From Desulfobulbus oligotrophicus (GTDB taxonomy: Bacteria > Desulfobacterota > Desulfobulbia > Desulfobulbales > Desulfobulbaceae): DNA of 64,000 bases. Position 1 is the first letter of the stretch. Each line of letters opens with the position of its first letter. Below, piece by piece: positions 1,038 through 58,190 of this stretch. The stretch is from assembly GCF_016446285.1 (NCBI RefSeq), contig NZ_CP054140.1, positions 2,027,501 to 2,091,500 on the forward strand, given 5' to 3'. The notes under the pieces were generated by a model. It did no database searches, had not been told where the DNA came from, and was given only the letters and a program-made list of their open reading frames with translations. A program made the position numbers and the translations under genes.

Positions 1038-2300
1038 TCAGCGTTTCAGATTGATCAGCTCACTGAGCATCTCATCAACAGTGGTGATGATCTTCGAGTT
1101 TGCCTGAAAACCGCGCTGGGTGGTGATCATCTGGACAAACTCCTGGCCCATGTCAACATTGGACAGTTCAAGGGAGTTGGTGAATACTTTACCCAGTTCC
1201 GGACCCGGCAGGCCAACCCGGATGGAGCCGACCTCGGAGGTGGCTGTATAGCGGTTGGCTCCGGCGAGTTTCAGGCCGCCCGGGTTTTGAAATTTGGCAA
1301 GCACCAGTTGCGAGATGTTGATCTGCCGGCCATTGGAGTACGAAGCCACCACTGTTCCCTGGTTGTTGATAAAGACGTTGGTCAGTTCACCGGCCGCGTA
1401 CCCGTTCTGTTCCTGACCGATGATCGCTGAACTGCTGTCAAACTGTGTGCAGTCAAAGGTAAAGTCAATAACTGAAGCAGCTGCACCGTTTCCCCAGGCA
1501 GGCAGGTTGATCTGCACGGTGAGGGGGTCAGGGAAATCGATGTACAGACCGTTTGCATCGAACTGCAGCTGTTGCGAAATAGCCTGAGGAGCGGCGGTGT
1601 TGTTGTCAACGGTGTATGCCATGTTCCAGAGGTTGGTGCTGTCATCTTCCAGCTGCCAGTACATGGTTATAAGGTGCGATTGTCCCAGGGAGTCGAATAT
1701 CTGGGTGGAGCCGGAGTAATTGTAGGTTGTCCGATCGGTCGGATCAATGGGTATTCCTGTTCCGATAACCCGGGAGTTTTCGTCCAGGTTGGTGGTCAGG
1801 GTCAGCGTGGAGGTAGGGTTGGCCGGGGTCAGACCGAGGTTGACCACCCGAATGTCGGTGGGATCTTGTGGCAGAAGCTCGCTGTTGTTAACAGGATCAA
1901 ATGTCATCCCCTGCACGCGTAAACCTTCGGGATTGATAAGGTAGCCATCCTGGTTAAAGCGGAAAGAACCGGCGCGGGAGTAGTAGGTTGTGTCGTTGCC
2001 TGTTTCTTTGAGCAGGAAAAATCCAGTACCCTCAATGGCGACATCCGTATTTGAAGAGGTGGTTTCAAAGGTCCCCTGGCTGTAAATAGAGTCAACAATG
2101 GAGAGGCCGACTCCACGGCCCACCTGGGATGCGCCTCCGGAGCCGTAAATATTGCCTGATAAGAGGTCGGAAAAGATACTGCGGGATCCCTTGAATCCCA
2201 GGGTGTTGGTGTTGGCGAGGTTGTTGCCGATAACGCTCATGGCTTGCGAGTTGGTGTTAAGTCCGCTGATGCCGCTGAACATAGCACTTTGAATACCCAT
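1038..2300 (-). CDS. flgE: Flagellar hook protein FlgE
   Basis: FlgE polymerises into the hook, the universal joint between rod and filament. The 420-residue protein starts with the conserved rod/hook N-terminal segment (SAMFSGISGLNTNSQAMSVI, then GNNLANTNTLGFK). It ends with the matching C-terminal helix (SNVDMGQEFVQMITTQRGFQ, then ANSKIITTVDEML), which together form the D0 coiled-coil core. The centre is the variable surface domain, with the FlgE pattern TNLDEN followed by QIFDSLGQSH. An AGGAG ribosome site precedes the ATG. The gene follows flgD, whose product caps the growing hook, and is the last gene before a strong terminator. The 149-base gap before it shows no clear promoter. Confidence 0.96.
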   Translation of the reverse strand: MGIQSAMFSGISGLNTNSQAMSVIGNNLANTNTLGFKGSRSIFSDLLSGNIYGSGGASQVGRGVGLSIVDSIYSQGTFETTSSNTDVAIEGTGFFLLKETGNDTTYYSRAGSFRFNQDGYLINPEGLRVQGMTFDPVNNSELLPQDPTDIRVVNLGLTPANPTSTLTLTTNLDENSRVIGTGIPIDPTDRTTYNYSGSTQIFDSLGQSHLITMYWQLEDDSTNLWNMAYTVDNNTAAPQAISQQLQFDANGLYIDFPDPLTVQINLPAWGNGAAASVIDFTFDCTQFDSSSAIIGQEQNGYAAGELTNVFINNQGTVVASYSNGRQINISQLVLAKFQNPGGLKLAGANRYTATSEVGSIRVGLPGPELGKVFTNSLELSNVDMGQEFVQMITTQRGFQANSKIITTVDEMLSELINLKR

Positions 2301-2449
2301 GACAAACTCCTAGGTGATTGATGTGAGAGGACTGGTAATGTGAGCAAATAGCGTATCAAGGGGGAGGGCGACACGGTGTTCTCTGCAGATATGCCCTGTA
2401 CCCTGTTATTGTCTGATCGGCTGCAACGCTGCTTTTTTTTAGTTGTTTT

Positions 2450-3145
2450 TCAGCCTGCGCTGCTCTCTGCCGCCGGTTGGCTCTTGTTATAGGCCCCGTG
2501 GATGGATGAAACCGTATATTCGCCAAGGGCAGTGACGATTTTTGCCTCTCTGCCGCTTAAGTCAATACCGGTTACCTCTGAACGTACCAGGGGGGAGACC
2601 GCGGCACTGTAGCCGTCGGCACCGGTAGCGTTGATGACGATGGAATAGGTACCGCTGGGCAGGGTACTGCCGCTGCTGTCTTTACCGTCCCAGGTCAGGA
2701 AGTGGTTGCCTGCGGCCAGGTCGTCGGCTTGCAGGACCGCCACGGTCTGCCCGAATGCGTTCTGGATCGACACCGAGGCATCGCTGATGGCTCCATCGAT
2801 CTTGTAGCCGATCTGGAGCGGATTGCCCTGAAAGGAGAACTCGCTTTCCTCAACCACAACCTCCTGGCCGATCAGACTGAGCGAGGAGAGCCGTTCGGAA
2901 TTGTTCTGTGCCACAGCCAGCAGTTTCATGGAATCGTTGAGATTAAACAACTGCTCCAGCTGGCTGTACTGCGCCAGCTGTGCGGTGAACTCAGTGGGGT
3001 CTGAAGGGTTGAGCGGATCCTGGTGTTGCATTTGGGCAACCAGCAGGGTCAGAAACTGTTCCTGTCCCAGGGCGGATGTTTTGGTGGTGGTTGTCTTTGT
3101 TGTTGCCGCGGTGTCGGTGTTGATTACGCCGGAAACAGATGTCAT
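2450..3145 (-). CDS. flgD: Flagellar hook capping/assembly protein FlgD
   Basis: FlgD sits at the tip of the nascent hook and directs FlgE polymerisation. The 231-residue product has a Thr-rich start, then the conserved N-terminal block LGQEQFLTLLVAQMQHQDPL followed by NPSDPTEFTAQLAQYSQLEQ. Next comes a tudor/Ig-like region with the FlgD signature HFLTWDGKDSSGSTLPSGTY. The length is typical. It sits between fliK, which controls hook length, and flgE, which encodes the hook subunit, so the three hook-assembly genes are consecutive. Confidence 0.95.
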   Translation of the reverse strand: MTSVSGVINTDTAATTKTTTTKTSALGQEQFLTLLVAQMQHQDPLNPSDPTEFTAQLAQYSQLEQLFNLNDSMKLLAVAQNNSERLSSLSLIGQEVVVEESEFSFQGNPLQIGYKIDGAISDASVSIQNAFGQTVAVLQADDLAAGNHFLTWDGKDSSGSTLPSGTYSIVINATGADGYSAAVSPLVRSEVTGIDLSGREAKIVTALGEYTVSSIHGAYNKSQPAAESSAG

Positions 3146-3160
3146 GATGTTCTCCGTACC

Positions 3161-4603
3161 TCAGATGAGGACATTTAAAATATTGCTGGCTGCGGACACA
3201 GCCATCTCTTCATCACTGATCGAGGAAGAAAACGGTTGTTGGGCGATTGAGAGACCCGGAAAAGCTGCTGCCTGCTGCCGAGCGTCACGGCCCTGAAATC
3301 GTTCGTCACCGGTTTGCTCCTGCGTTGCCACGGTCACTTCAACCTGCTGCAGATGCAGTCCCTGTTCTTCCAGAGCATCGCGCAGGCGGGGCAGGTGACG
3401 GTCAATCATCTCCCGGGTCTGCGGGTTCTGGGTCAGAATGTGCGCCTTCACATTGTCCTGCTCCACTGTGATGGTCATCCGTACTTTTCCGAGCTCCTGC
3501 GGGTTGAGGCGCAACACCACCTCATGAGATTCCAGGCGGTTATTGATGGTGAGGTGCGCTGTTATCTGGTCCACCACCGTACTTTCCGGCACCATGAGTC
3601 CTGAGGGCAGGTGATAGAATGCTGGCTGCCCGGGCGGACTGATTGTGGCCGGCCGGCCGGTGCTCAGCGGTTGAACGAGAACCGGCTGGTGGTGGTGAAC
3701 AGCCTGCTGCAGATCGGTTTTTTGCCAGACAAACTGTTCGTCAGGTCCTTTGTTCGATTGTGTGGACAGATTATCGGGTTCGGGATTCTTCTGCGACTGC
3801 TGGGCATGTATGTCCTGTTGCTCGCTGAACTGTCCCGCTATTTTGCTTAAGGCCTCTTTAGGAAGGCGCGATTGGATATAGCGTGTGTCGGCATCCAGGC
3901 GCGGGGTGGCGGTTAAGGAGCCGGGAACGGCAGTCCCGTTGTTTTCATGCTCTTCATCACCACCAAGGGCCTGTACAGCGATGCTGTGCTGCCCGCTTGC
4001 ATCGTGGAGCTCTGGATGGCTGTCAATCAGGGTCTCACCCATGCCGGTGGCTGCCCCGCCTTGCTGTAAACCGGAGGTAAAGGCCTGTGACAGGGGATGG
4101 CGGCCATGTAGTGGTCGACCTGTCATCTCCCCAGTGGATGATTCTGTCTGTAATTCGGTCGGCTCGGCCATCTGAGAGACTGCTCTGCTGCCGGACGGCT
4201 CTTCGCCTCGATTGAGCTGCTCCAGCATGCGTGTGATCGCTGTCTTTTCAGAACGGGTATCTGTGCTGCTGTCTGCCTTGTGGCTGCTCAGGTGTTCCGG
4301 AGGTATCGGCTGCACGTGCTCCTCAGCCGGAGAATACGGATCAGCGGCCGGTGCTTCTCTCTGCCTGCCCGCCGAAGAGCGGCTGTTTTTTTGTGTGGAG
4401 CTCTGCTGATTACGGGGCACATCCTTCTTCCCCTTGCGCGTAGAGGCAGGGGTTGATTGTTTGTCAGAGTGTTTTTGCTGTGCTGCGGATTCCAGGTGGT
4501 CGGCAAACAGACTTTTCTGTTTATGACCTGCAGGTGCCGCTCCTGAGAAGGCGTCAAAGGATGGCCGATCAGAGGGGATGAAGGCAAGGGCGGACAGGGA
4601 CAT
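3161..4603 (-). CDS. fliK: Flagellar hook-length control protein FliK
   Basis: FliK is the secreted molecular ruler that measures hook length and switches the export gate from hook to filament substrates. The 480-residue protein has a long low-complexity N-terminal part rich in Ser, Gln, Pro and Lys. It ends in the globular FliK C-terminal domain, recognisable by LRLNPQELGKVRMTITVEQD and the following LTQNPQTREMIDRHLPRLRD. A Gln-rich tail follows. The start overlaps the stop of the upstream MotE-like gene (TAATG), suggesting translational coupling. The identity rests on the C-terminal domain plus position before flgD; the N-terminal part is too variable to judge. Confidence 0.88.
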   Translation of the reverse strand: MSLSALAFIPSDRPSFDAFSGAAPAGHKQKSLFADHLESAAQQKHSDKQSTPASTRKGKKDVPRNQQSSTQKNSRSSAGRQREAPAADPYSPAEEHVQPIPPEHLSSHKADSSTDTRSEKTAITRMLEQLNRGEEPSGSRAVSQMAEPTELQTESSTGEMTGRPLHGRHPLSQAFTSGLQQGGAATGMGETLIDSHPELHDASGQHSIAVQALGGDEEHENNGTAVPGSLTATPRLDADTRYIQSRLPKEALSKIAGQFSEQQDIHAQQSQKNPEPDNLSTQSNKGPDEQFVWQKTDLQQAVHHHQPVLVQPLSTGRPATISPPGQPAFYHLPSGLMVPESTVVDQITAHLTINNRLESHEVVLRLNPQELGKVRMTITVEQDNVKAHILTQNPQTREMIDRHLPRLRDALEEQGLHLQQVEVTVATQEQTGDERFQGRDARQQAAAFPGLSIAQQPFSSSISDEEMAVSAASNILNVLI

Positions 4604-53940: not shown

Positions 53941-54069
53941 ATGACATCACAAGCACTTCAGGTATTCGAGTGCGCTATTCAAGACGCCACGGAACTCCTC
54001 GGCCACTTCGATACCCTCAATACGCAACCTCCGCCACCAAGTGCGGAAGTTCTCAAACGCGCCAGCCTA
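53941..54069 (+). pseudogene. 5' fragment of a gene truncated by the IS630 array
   Basis: The first 43 codons are intact (MTSQALQVFECAIQDATELL, then GHFDTLNTQPPPPSAEVLK) behind an AGGAC site. The frame enters the first IS630 end at the CTAG target and stops soon after (54097). The start resembles HEPN-type (RiboL-PSP) proteins, but this rests on a short match. The rest of the gene is not present beyond the array, where an IS4 relic follows instead. Confidence 0.45.
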
Positions 54070-55152
54070 GTGCCCCGTGCGGTTAGTGTCGTCTTTTAAT
54101 TTTGAGACCTTTTCAAGTATCACCGCTGCAGTCTTTGTCCATGTGAATGGCTTGGCCGATCTGTTATTGTGCTGCTTGATGAAGCGGTGGATTTCATCTC
54201 TGAGATCTTTGACACTTGTAAACACCCCTCGGTGGATGGCTCTGCGCTCCAGTTGGCCGAACCAGCTTTCAACCGCATTCAGCCATGATGCACTGGTTGG
54301 TGTGAAATGGAACGTAAACCGAGGGTGAGCCTTGAGCCATTGCATCACATCTGCCGTTTTATGGGTACTGCTGTTGTCCAGTATGACATGGAGGGCAACC
54401 TCGGCTGGAACGGCCCTATTCAACTGCCGCAAGAAGTCGAGAAACTCCTTGGCTCGATGCCTTTTGGTTGTTCGGCCAAGCACTTGTCCGGTTAAAATGT
54501 CGAAGGCAGCGTATAAATTGGTGGTGCCATTTCGTTTGTAATCATGCGTGCGACGCTCAATCTGGCCGGGCCGCATGGGCAACATTGGCTGGGTACGATC
54601 CAACGCTTGAATCTGCGTTTTCTCATCAACGGAAAACACAGCCGCATTTTCAGGTGGATTCATGTACAGGCCAACAATATCGATTACTTTTTCAGCAAAA
54701 TTCGGATCATTGCTGATTTTGAAATTTTTAAGCCGATGCGGTTTTAAATCGGCTGCATTCCATATCTGTCGCACCTGCCACGTGGTGACCTTGGCGGCTT
54801 TGGCCATAAGGCGAACACTCCAATGGGTTGCCTCATGAGGAATGCACTCAACTGTCATCCGCAAAACTTCTTTGACCGTTGCATCGGTCAGTTTTTTTGG
54901 CTGGCCGCTACGAGGACGATCGACAAGCCCGTGGATGCCATACTCTTTAAATCGTTTCCTCCATCGATAGATTGTGCGAAAAGTTGTCCCTAATTCGACA
55001 ATCAAATCCTCGGCAGTTTTACCTGATGCCGTTAAGAGGATAATCTTGGCCCGAGATGCCAGATCTTGGGCTGTTTTCGGTGAGCGCAACAACGCCTCAA
55101 GGTCTTGGCGTTGTTCGTCTGTTATCGTAAATTTCTCGTGTTTGCGTGCCAT
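54067..55152 (-). CDS. IS630-family transposase, copy 1
   Basis: The 361-residue DDE transposase has an N-terminal helix-turn-helix pair (LASRAKIILLTASGKTAEDL, TTFRTIYRWRKRFKEYGIHG) and the catalytic core with VFSVDEKTQIQ, HVILDNSSTHK and WLNAVESWFGQLE. The spacing of the last Asp and Glu is about 35 residues, as in the family. The frame reads through the terminal repeat (DDTNRTGH), and its stop TAG is formed by the duplicated TA plus the next base of flanking DNA. The gene is intact and probably active. Confidence 0.95.
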   Translation of the reverse strand: MARKHEKFTITDEQRQDLEALLRSPKTAQDLASRAKIILLTASGKTAEDLIVELGTTFRTIYRWRKRFKEYGIHGLVDRPRSGQPKKLTDATVKEVLRMTVECIPHEATHWSVRLMAKAAKVTTWQVRQIWNAADLKPHRLKNFKISNDPNFAEKVIDIVGLYMNPPENAAVFSVDEKTQIQALDRTQPMLPMRPGQIERRTHDYKRNGTTNLYAAFDILTGQVLGRTTKRHRAKEFLDFLRQLNRAVPAEVALHVILDNSSTHKTADVMQWLKAHPRFTFHFTPTSASWLNAVESWFGQLERRAIHRGVFTSVKDLRDEIHRFIKQHNNRSAKPFTWTKTAAVILEKVSKLKDDTNRTGH

Positions 55153-55205
55153 ACGGCACTATAACACAAGAAATATTAAAAGACTCTATTAACCGCACGG
55201 GACAC
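54070..55205 (-). mobile_element. IS630-family element, copy 1 of 3
   Basis: A 1136-base element bounded by inverted repeats GTGCCCCGTGCGGTTA (left, one mismatch to the other copies) and TAACCGCACGGGACAC (right). It lies between TA dinucleotides at 54068-54069 and 55206-55207. The left flank keeps C before TA, giving CTAG at the junction. The left mismatch is unique to this copy. Confidence 0.92.
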
Positions 55206-56290
55206 TAGTGTCCCGTGCGGTTAGTGTCGTCTTTTAATTTTGAGACCTTTTCAAGTATCACCGCTGCAGTCTTTGTCCATGTGAATGGCTTGGCCGATCT
55301 GTTATTGTGCTGCTTGATGAAGCGGTGGATTTCATCTCTGAGATCTTTGACACTTGTAAACACCCCTCGGTGGATGGCTCTGCGCTCCAGTTGGCCGAAC
55401 CAGCTTTCAACCGCATTCAGCCATGATGTACTGGTTGGTGTGAAATGGAACGTAAACCGAGGGTGGGCCTTGAGCCATTGCATCACATCTGCCGTTTTAT
55501 GGGTACTGCTGTTGTCCAGTATGACATGGAGGGCAACCTCGGCTGGAACGGCCCTATTCAACTGCCGCAAGAAGTCGAGAAACTCCTTGGCTCGATGCCT
55601 TTTGGTTGTTCGGCCAAGCACTTGTCCGGTTAAAATGTCGAAGGCAGCGTATAAATTGGTGGTGCCATTTCGTTTGTAATCATGCGTGCGACGCTCAATC
55701 TGGCCGGGCCGCATGGGCAACATTGGCTGGGTACGATCCAACGCTTGAATCTGCGTTTTCTCATCAACGGAAAACACAGCCGCATTTTCAGGTGGATTCA
55801 TGTACAGGCCAACAATATCGATTACTTTCTCAGCAAAATTCGGATCATTGCTGATTTTGAAATTTTTAAGCCGATGCGGTTTTAAATCGGCTGCATTCCA
55901 TATCTGTCGCACCTGCCACGTGGTGACCTTGGCGGCTTTGGCCATAAGGCGAACACTCCAATGGGTTGCCTCATGAGGAATGCACTCAACTGTCATCCGC
56001 AAAACTTCTTTGACCGTTGCATCGGTCAGTTTTTTGGGCTGGCCGCTACGAGGACGATCGACAAGCCCGTGGATGCCATACTCTTTAAATCGTTTCCTCC
56101 ATCGATAGATTGTACGAAAAGTTGTCCCTAATTCGACAATCAAATCCTCGGCAGTTTTACCTGATGCCGTTAAGAGGATAATCTTGGCCCGAGATGCCAG
56201 ATCTTGGGCTGTTTTCGGTGAGCGCAACAACGCCTCAAGGTCTTGGCGTTGTTCGTCTGTTATCGTAAATTTCTCGTGTCTGCGTGCCAT
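55205..56290 (-). CDS. IS630-family transposase, copy 2
   Basis: 361 residues, differing from copy 1 at two visible positions: MARRHEKF for MARKHEKF, and TPTSTSW for TPTSASW next to the catalytic Glu region. The three DDE residues are unchanged. Its TAG stop is supplied by the shared TA and the terminal base of copy 1. Confidence 0.95.
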   Translation of the reverse strand: MARRHEKFTITDEQRQDLEALLRSPKTAQDLASRAKIILLTASGKTAEDLIVELGTTFRTIYRWRKRFKEYGIHGLVDRPRSGQPKKLTDATVKEVLRMTVECIPHEATHWSVRLMAKAAKVTTWQVRQIWNAADLKPHRLKNFKISNDPNFAEKVIDIVGLYMNPPENAAVFSVDEKTQIQALDRTQPMLPMRPGQIERRTHDYKRNGTTNLYAAFDILTGQVLGRTTKRHRAKEFLDFLRQLNRAVPAEVALHVILDNSSTHKTADVMQWLKAHPRFTFHFTPTSTSWLNAVESWFGQLERRAIHRGVFTSVKDLRDEIHRFIKQHNNRSAKPFTWTKTAAVILEKVSKLKDDTNRTGH

Positions 56291-56343
56291 ACGGCACTAT
56301 AACACAAGAAATATTAAAAGACTCTATTAACCGCACGGGACAC
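55208..56343 (-). mobile_element. IS630-family element, copy 2 of 3
   Basis: Same length and direction as copy 1, sharing one TA (55206-55207) with it and one TA (56344-56345) with copy 3. Both ends have the canonical GTGTCCCGTGCGGTTA repeat. The junction with copy 1 is a perfect 34-base palindrome across TA. Confidence 0.92.
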
Positions 56344-57428
56344 TAGTGTCCCGTGCGGTTAGTGTCGTCTTTTAATTTTGAGACCTTTTCAAGTATCACC
56401 GCTGCAGTCTTTGTCCATGTGAATGGCTTGGCCGATCTGTTATTGTGCTGCTTGATGAAGCGGTGGATTTCATCTCTGAGATCTTTGACACTTGTAAACA
56501 CCCCTCGGTGGATGGCTCTGCGCTCCAGTTGGCCGAACCAGCTTTCAACCGCATTCAGCCATGATGCACTGGTTGGTGTGAAATGGAACGTAAACCGAGG
56601 GTGGGCCTTGAGCCATTGCATCACATCTGCCGTTTTATGGGTACTGCTGTTGTCCAGTATGACATGGAGGGCAACCTCGGCTGGAACGGCCCTATTCAAC
56701 TGCCGCAAGAAGTCGAGAAACTCCTTGGCTCGATGCCTTTTGGTTGTTCGGCCAAGCACTTGTCCGGTTAAAATGTCGAAGGCAGCGTATAAATTGGTGG
56801 TGCCATTTCGTTTGTAATCATGCGTGCGACGCTCAATCTGGCCGGGCCGCATGGGCAACATTGGCTGGGTACGATCCAACGCTTGAATCTGCGTTTTCTC
56901 ATCAACGGAAAACACAGCCGCATTTTCAGGTGGATTCATGTACAGGCCAACAATATCGATTACTTTCTCAGCAAAATTCGGATCATTGCTGATTTTGAAA
57001 TTTTTAAGCCGATGCGGTTTTAAATCGGCTGCATTCCATATCTGTCGCACCTGCCACGTGGTGACCTTGGCGGCTTTGGCCATAAGGCGAACACTCCAAT
57101 GGGTTGCCTCATGAGGAATGCACTCAACTGTCATCCGCAAAACTTCTTTGACCGTTGCATCGGTCAGTTTTTTTGGCTGGCCGCTACGAGGACGATCGAC
57201 AAGCCCGTGGATGCCATACTCTTTAAATCGTTTCCTCCATCGATAGATTGTGCGAAAAGTTGTCCCTAATTCGACAATCAAATCCTCGGCAGTTTTACCT
57301 GATGCCGTTAAGAGGATAATCTTGGCCCGAGATGCCAGATCTTGGGCTGTTTTCGGTGAGCGCAACAACGCCTCAAGGTCTTGGCGTTGTTCGTCTGTTA
57401 TCGTAAATTTCTCGTGTTTGCGTGCCAT
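56343..57428 (-). CDS. IS630-family transposase, copy 3
   Basis: 361 residues, the same as copy 1 by eye at the protein level. At the DNA level it shares some bases with copy 2 (GGGTGGGCC, TTTCTCAGC) and others with copy 1 (the MARK start). The mosaic pattern suggests recent duplication with little decay. Stop codon again formed by the TA junction. Confidence 0.95.
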   Translation of the reverse strand: MARKHEKFTITDEQRQDLEALLRSPKTAQDLASRAKIILLTASGKTAEDLIVELGTTFRTIYRWRKRFKEYGIHGLVDRPRSGQPKKLTDATVKEVLRMTVECIPHEATHWSVRLMAKAAKVTTWQVRQIWNAADLKPHRLKNFKISNDPNFAEKVIDIVGLYMNPPENAAVFSVDEKTQIQALDRTQPMLPMRPGQIERRTHDYKRNGTTNLYAAFDILTGQVLGRTTKRHRAKEFLDFLRQLNRAVPAEVALHVILDNSSTHKTADVMQWLKAHPRFTFHFTPTSASWLNAVESWFGQLERRAIHRGVFTSVKDLRDEIHRFIKQHNNRSAKPFTWTKTAAVILEKVSKLKDDTNRTGH

Positions 57429-57481
57429 ACGGCACTATAACACAAGAAATATTAAAAGACTCTATTAACCGCACGGGACAC
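56346..57481 (-). mobile_element. IS630-family element, copy 3 of 3
   Basis: Again 1136 bases with canonical repeats, between TA at 56344-56345 and TA at 57482-57483. The right flank reads CTAGGCGG, so the C-TA-G context is kept at the outer border too. It is the copy closest to the right flank. Confidence 0.92.
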
Positions 57482-57489
57482 TAGGCGGA

Positions 57490-57910
57490 TACGGCTGCGT
57501 CGCGCCGCTGATGTCCACGTTTCTGGCAGCAGTACCGCTTGTCCACCGTTTTTCTGATTCTCTGCGCGCGTTTGCTTGCTTTGGATGAGGGGCAGAGAAT
57601 GAAATTAAGCGGCAGGAAACTCACCCCATCCACCACCAGTCCAAGATCATGAGCTTGAATCCTTTCAGGCTTTGGTTGGCGTTGTGGTCGTAGACCCAGG
57701 CGAGCACAATTCAACCACCTTGGGACAAGACCGGTCATAGGTGCTGTCGTCGATGATCAGCACTTTCTCCCGTTGCTCGCCGATCAGCACCTTCAAGAAT
57801 CCCCCCACGTCACCAGGTTCAACAGCAAGGTCCGCCTGGTATACCGAAGATTCTTCAGGAATTCGCAGGTGCTATCCTTCTTAAATCCCGGTTCCCGGTT
57901 CTGGACAATA
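57490..57910 (-). pseudogene. IS4-family transposase relic
   Basis: Minus-strand fragments in different frames follow an IS4-type transposase in order. FKKDSTCEFLKNLRYTRRTL comes first, then VLIIDDSTYDRSCPKVVEL (the DDS block with the first Asp). LAWVYDHNANQSLKGFKLMI follows in another frame, then LGLVVDGVSFLPLNFILCPS and KTVDKRYCCQKRGH. The catalytic Glu region is missing, since the fragment stops at the IS630 border. At least two frame breaks make it inactive. Confidence 0.7.
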
Positions 57911-57965
57911 CCACGGGGTGTGCTCCTTGCAGTTTGCAGATACCGCTGCCGGCCGACAGGTGTCG

Positions 57966-58086
57966 GCCACTGCCGTATTTGCAGAAGAGTGAGAGTTGCG
58001 AATGGATAGAGTCACTTACTGTTTTGACAGATATTGCCGCCAAGAGCGGTGCCCGAGAGACAAGAAAGAATTGGTTGCATGAAAAT
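57966..58086 (+). repeat. Diverged direct repeat, copy B
   Basis: Partner of the segment at 52203-52332. The coding frame seen in copy A is shifted by one missing base after GAGTCACT; the later part reads YCFDRYCRQERCPRDKKELV. An eight-base piece present in copy A (TGAAGCCT) is missing at its left end. It lies just upstream of the FecR gene. Confidence 0.65.
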
Positions 58087-58190
58087 GGTCTGATCGGGTA
58101 GGTATTAAGAACAGATATGTTGATTATTCAGATACATCGTTCAATATCCCTGTACGGATGGCACCATCTTTTTATGGAGAAGAAACCGAT

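Follow-up and report, generated by a model that had tools for sequence, protein, structure and literature searches.

In the stretch of the Desulfobulbus oligotrophicus genome considered here (contig NZ_CP054140.1, positions 2,027,501 to 2,091,500; 64,000 nucleotides, called the window, whose numbering is used below), we analysed a tandem of three insertion sequences of the IS630 family, named A1 to A3, each of 1,136 bp, all in the same orientation and with one TA between neighbours. The repeat spacing is 1138 and 1138, so that coordinates and spacing agree with an earlier sequence-only reading, which had described three copies running in one direction with a single shared TA and a 1138-base unit. 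The same reading had called the triple perfect, which it is not: the copies differ from one another and vary at seven sites (seven differences between A1 and A2, four between A2 and A3 and three between A1 and A3). The features of the locus are the following.

54070..55205, minus strand (that of the transposase gene): IS630-family copy A1, variants 4C, 259A and 622T relative to A3
55208..56343, minus strand: IS630-family copy A2, variants 222T, 829G, 907A and 1073C relative to A3
56346..57481, minus strand: IS630-family copy A3, identical over 1,136 bp to the single copy L003 elsewhere in the genome
54067..55152, minus strand: A1 transposase gene, 361 amino acids, stop codon TAG outside the element (TA plus a target base)
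55205..56290, minus strand: A2 transposase gene, 361 amino acids, stop codon made of TA plus the terminal base of A1
56343..57428, minus strand: A3 transposase gene, 361 amino acids, stop codon made of TA plus the terminal base of A2
54068-54069, 55206-55207, 56344-56345 and 57482-57483: single TAs at the copy borders
54067..54070, no strand: CTAG at the left array border (host C, TA, element G)
57481..57484, no strand: CTAG at the right array border (element C, TA, host G)
55190..55223, no strand: perfect 34-bp palindrome at the A1/A2 junction, with the shared TA in the middle
56328..56361, no strand: perfect 34-bp palindrome at the A2/A3 junction

We found CTAG at all four array borders (starts 54067, 55205, 56343 and 57481), as had been claimed for the junctions and the outer flanks, and no CTAG when the interior of the element was scanned; the element-end form of the CTAG target is CACTAGTG. 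Both inner junctions were verified as the perfect 34-base palindromes that had been announced, and the 70 nucleotides around the A1/A2 junction, treated as single-stranded DNA, gave a strong fold (-25.1 kcal/mol, z -10.8), whereas the same folding revealed nothing unusual at the two outer borders. The palindromes are putative hotspots at most, the role that the earlier reading had proposed for them, although a templated conversion of an element end is seen (see below). A search of the junction for a promoter running across it found none, and the one terminator-like site detected there, on the plus strand, is the palindrome itself.

Since the copy number comes from a single-contig assembly and A3 is identical to L003, it has to be considered whether the assembly itself created the array. 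Nevertheless, the genome is one contig and the differences among the three copies argue against simple assembly duplication, so that we find an artefact hardly credible.

The transposase and its stop codon

The transposase frame is open in A1, A2 and A3, and its product matches the IS630-family model NF033545 far above the cut-off (E 1.7e-84, 283.8 bits against a cut-off of 100), which bears out the IS630-type assignment of the sequence-only reading. A DDE_3 domain was identified in the A3 transposase, and the predicted acidic catalytic triad consists of D176, D259 and E295, the last two spaced by 35, the residues having been chosen by motif. No IS30 model occurred among the NCBIfam matches at E 0.001, where the IS630 model was the best.

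In A1, A2 and A3, the open reading frame ends one codon outside the element, and CTA stands at this place in all seven full-length copies of the genome, the stop TAG being made up of the bordering TA and the next base. In the IS870 group, the transposase stop codon is completed by the CTAG target, and the likeness to this group that had been suggested is supported by the target-supplied stop of every copy. Judged from its sequence, the element is an unremarkable representative of the IS630 family and can be placed with the CTAG-targeting, IS870-like elements.

Targeting of CTAG and origin of the triple

The seven full-length copies in the genome, which consists of a single contig of 3,102,012 bases, are the three of the array and the single copies L003 to L006. 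The single copies are flanked by CTA and TAG in 4/4 cases, as is the whole array, and TA stands on both sides of all seven copies. In a 400-kb sample of the genome, CTAG was the rarest context of TA (53 of 13,067), which extrapolates to about 411 sites overall, and the chance that all five host sites (those of the four singles and that of the array as a whole) would be CTAG is about 1e-12. Thus, single copies do sit at CTAG, as had been expected, and the opposite case, other copies at TA sites lacking the flanking C and G, was not encountered among the four singles of this genome.

Eighty relatives were fetched by means of the transposase, and their boundaries were called by a rule that demanded a TA at either end and a match of the three terminal bases and did not require C or G beside the TA. 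The ends of 54 relatives beat each of 100 shuffles; the remaining 26, in which the best of 100 shuffles was not surpassed by any boundary, were left out. Among the 54 callable relatives, 52 start with GTG, and in 49 the left TA is preceded by C and the right TA is followed by G, the exceptions to this flanking pattern being L041, L057 (where the called border seems to be misplaced by a few bases), L063, L091 and L098. The stop codon is formed by TA and the next base in 23/54. Among same-genus end remnants with a readable border, L022 reads TAA instead of TAG.

It is possible to propose how the array was built. The element would insert at the TA within CTAG and duplicate this TA. It follows from the sequence, with G as the first base of the element and C as the last, that one CTAG becomes two at every insertion and that the border between copies always reads CAC-TA-GTG. 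Later copies could enter the renewed CTAGs without breaking a copy, and the stop TAG would be restored every time as TA plus G, that of the neighbour being kept. In our judgement, the triple probably arose in this way, by further insertions beside the first copy at renewed CTAG, accompanied by a degree of conversion or crossing over between the copies. We infer both the use of, or preference for, element-end CTAGs by the transposase and the order and route of insertion at this array.

The alleles of the seven copies bear on this reading. A3 and L003 show 0 differences although they lie about 850 kb apart, A2 and L004 share 829G and 907A, and 622T is common to A1 and L004; such sharing with distant copies argues against a recent clean duplication. 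According to an alternative explanation, one insertion beside a copy produced a dimer, which unequal crossing over of sister chromosomes extended to a trimer, and gene conversion with L003 and L004 came later and gave rise to the shared alleles. Direct repeats of 1.1 kb are generally known as good recombination substrates, and when the placement of seven copies on about 411 CTAG sites was simulated at random 200,000 times, the largest cluster was a pair in 0.096 of the histories, which is not rare, and a triple in 0.0012, which is (this last number being post hoc). The four-gamete conflict in the data, with all four combinations at the site pairs 622/829 and 622/907, would also suit this explanation, as it points to exchange between copies or to one mutation having occurred twice. 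On the other hand, in a trimer obtained from a dimer by one crossover, the middle copy is predicted to resemble A3 in its left part and A1 in its right part, and A2 departs from this mosaic at 222, 829, 907 and 1073; moreover, A3 matches the distant L003 and yet differs from its neighbours. Since the misfit of A2, the identity of A3 with L003 and the alleles shared by A2 and L004 favour separate arrivals, we regard the crossover route as unlikely.

Further evidence for insertion at renewed CTAG comes from two head-to-tail pairs in relatives. In L071 (Acidobacteria draft), the elements at 1035-2265 (1,231 bp, end match 22/24) and 2268-3472 (1,205 bp, 18/24) have in common one TA in one CTAG (2265-2268); both proteins belong to the IS630 family, and nucleotide similarity between the elements is undetectable. 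In L064 (Magnetospirillum molischianum draft), the elements at 869-2005 (1,137 bp) and 2008-3177 (1,170 bp), with ends matching at 16/24 each, share a single CTAG (2005-2008) and are about 65% alike over 464 bp; the transposase frame of the first is broken, and that of the second is open and encodes an IS630-family protein. The outer borders of both pairs are CTAG, and no other TA site in either locus matched the pairs' left ends as well (0/40 and 0/116). Unit duplication cannot make such mixed pairs, whereas insertion at a CTAG renewed by another element can.

In the loci surveyed, the idea that arrays would recur in relatives held for these two mixed pairs at one CTAG but not for near-identical tandem copies. 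With 15 transposase queries, a second transposase match of at least 80 residues occurred in 3/80 loci (L029 to L108), namely L064, L071 and L038, that of L038 being encoded on the opposite strand at a distance of about 1.8 kb. The blastn self-comparison of 94 loci (L015 to L108), most of which are draft contigs that break or collapse at repeats, revealed repeats in four (L015, L064, L083 and L097), none of which was a tandem of near-identical copies of the matched element. Within the phylum, relatives are present in 31/394 genomes, and outside the element's own genome no same-strand adjacent pair appeared among the matches listed (at most five scored candidates per genome), a survey that could miss arrays, as our array itself was only partly among those matches. 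Matches to a junction pattern of the GTGTAGTG type with at most two mismatches were found in 5/395 genomes, against 12 for the control pattern, and a transposase match was absent from 5/5 loci fetched from this survey. Matches to the junction pattern of the element's own type were found in 13/192 genomes, with its own genome alone showing no mismatch and the other 12 sites standing against 26 control sites. At six places from these surveys (three from each), longer stretches contained no transposase match, with 4/6 contigs ending 11-128 bp past the site. Finally, no shared-CTAG pair was seen on inspection of the coordinates in three genomes with 74, 13 and 46 IS630-family matches, where the closest pair, L159 (G485), consists of same-strand transposase genes with two CTAGs 46 bp apart between them and with element ends that are not callable.

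Some observations weigh against repeated insertion at renewed CTAG. No empty insertion site, which could prove the TA duplication, was found in the flank search, where the array flanks were unique apart from a 123-bp match. Because the four-gamete conflict shows exchange or repeated mutation, the allele sharing could stem from conversion. Given the simulated frequency of a triple, CTAG preference alone is a thin explanation, and possible further contributions are an element-end bias, local jumping and the recombination of a dimer. Furthermore, the L064 pair is flanked by a perfect 540-bp inverted repeat (338-877 and 3169-3708, in a contig of 3.7 kb), which is either genuine, a palindromic region that served as target, or a fold-back in the draft assembly, and L064 may be misassembled outside the pair. 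The earlier proposal, that CTAG self-renewal explains the array without any host duplication, is only partly supported; it gains from the singles at CTAG, the distant allele sharing and the mixed pairs and loses from the simulation and the four-gamete conflict.

Other arrangements were noticed among IS630-family genes. In L160 (G251:C45:13000-16600), two diverged genes at 634-2953 lie on opposite strands and back to back, and the interval that separates them contains CTAGs at a distance of 46 bp. At five places of G018:C1 (e.g., 246055-246914) there are five identical copies that are candidates for programmed frameshifting, their transposase being divided between two overlapping frames. As for the DNA beside the array, a 42-residue frame in the left flank had no Pfam match, and a piece of the right flank had only a weak, implausible and unrelated one; the right flank (window 57484-58150) reads in pieces like what is presumably a broken transposase of another family.

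Conversion of the left terminal repeat

The single copies L005 and L006 have a left end (GTGTCCTGTTTGGTTA) that differs from the right end (GTGTCCCGTGCGGTTA) by three mismatches in 16, whereas the ends show no mismatch in A2, A3, L003 and L004 and one in A1, at position 4, where its left repeat has GTGC for GTGT. Over 1,136 bp, A3 and L005 differ solely at positions 7, 10 and 11, which are the three end mismatches, and each of these positions in A3 now has the right-end base, an outcome with a chance of about 1.5e-10 for three random substitutions. On this comparison, the left end of A3 is one templated conversion from the right end, and the converted state is also present in A1 (54070-54085) and A2 (55208-55223).

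56346..56361, no strand: left inverted repeat of A3, with right-repeat bases at element positions 7, 10 and 11, from sequence comparison

The converted state is probably derived, because a TTTGG left end is found in the same-genus loci L016, L018, L023, L025 and L020 (three genomes) and in the close relatives L029 to L032. This polarity is opposed by the left end TGCGG of L021 and L033 and by the other bases of L034 and L035, and it is qualified by the failure of the L031 ends to beat their own shuffles. In addition, position 7 varies among relatives (T in L016, L018, L023 and L025; C in L020 and L029 to L032), and its polarity is for this reason less sure than that of positions 10 and 11.

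The genome also contains a gene-less mini-element of 137 bp (G000:C1:1605565-1605701, in locus L133, G000:C1:1604000-1606700) with IS630-type ends and CTA/TAG flanks. Its left end is TTTGG-like and its right end is TGCGG, with the same 16 bases as the right end of the full-length element, and it is likely a miniature element moved by this transposase.

It is possible to hypothesize, if only tentatively and with low probability, that self-adjacent insertion created an imperfect palindrome of right repeat, TA and left repeat, that replication or repair rewrote the left end from the right one, and that the perfected copies then spread (from A3 to L003 and L004). If this were true, the array would be a workshop in which element ends are made symmetric. 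The conversion could also stem from one element internally, from an excised form or from recombination with the 137-bp mini-element.

More short elements with the same kind of ends, and with CTG/CAG flanks, were observed in L132 (G000:C1:74500-84500), near genome positions 75864, 76054, 82270 and 83260-83395; they lie close to repeats resembling repetitive extragenic palindromes.

An action on ends like that of IS30, where a joined-end intermediate (circle or dimer) inserts beside an existing end and yields same-orientation junctions, could account for the same orientation of both junctions, seen likewise in the L064 and L071 pairs, and for the end conversion, which resembles the products of IS30 end targeting presented in PMC9333248. 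However, a common orientation of two junctions is to be expected in one case out of four, plain insertion into CTAG also gives a single shared TA, and the IS630 family is described, in PMC2170065, as moving by cut and paste with linear excision. We therefore consider an IS30-like action highly unlikely and retain the insertion of later copies at renewed CTAG.

Comparison with known systems

IS630 of Shigella sonnei resembles the present element in its family transposase, TA borders and CTAG preference, but the Shigella plasmid copies annotated as IS630 match the transposase at only about 24% identity and are thus distant. Work by Tenzen and Ohtsubo from 1991 reportedly established, to go by its title, that IS630 prefers CTAG. 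In the IS870 group, CTAG completes the transposase stop, as it does in the 7/7 copies here and in 23/54 relatives.

Double insertion of transposons is said to have been treated by McGurk and Barbash in 2018. Double-insertion transposons are eukaryotic, whereas in our array it is by its own terminal bases that the element completes the preferred site. In eukaryotic transposons, tandem copies arise by repeated use of one duplicated target site, according to PMC12628747 and PMC12368964.

According to PMC9333248, IS30 inserts beside its own ends with sequence conversion, and self-end insertion, same-orientation junctions and end-sequence conversion are the points of likeness. IS30 differs in belonging to another family and in its copy-out paste-in route via circles and dimers, whereas the array described here has one TA between copies and canonical CTAG borders. 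The homogenisation of unequal inverted repeats by template switching, with clustered changes that match one arm to the other, is described for yeast genes in PMC8604942; in our case, the homogenised arms are those of the terminal inverted repeats of an insertion sequence and are either separated by 1.1 kb or placed back to back.

A limited search of the open-licence literature, which covered titles, the opening lines of abstracts and some passages among the papers listed, found no report of an IS630 tandem array. The tandem copies of PMC6267812 are a phage-related repeat and not IS630.

In conclusion, the array belongs to a known kind of element and shows an unusually clear record of end conversion. 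It offers a natural example of how ends and target preference together renew the landing site, so that copies, even of different family members, can stack unbroken. Its copies also document cleanly how the sequence of one terminal repeat replaced that of the other, a point of relevance to the question of how transposons keep their two ends alike.

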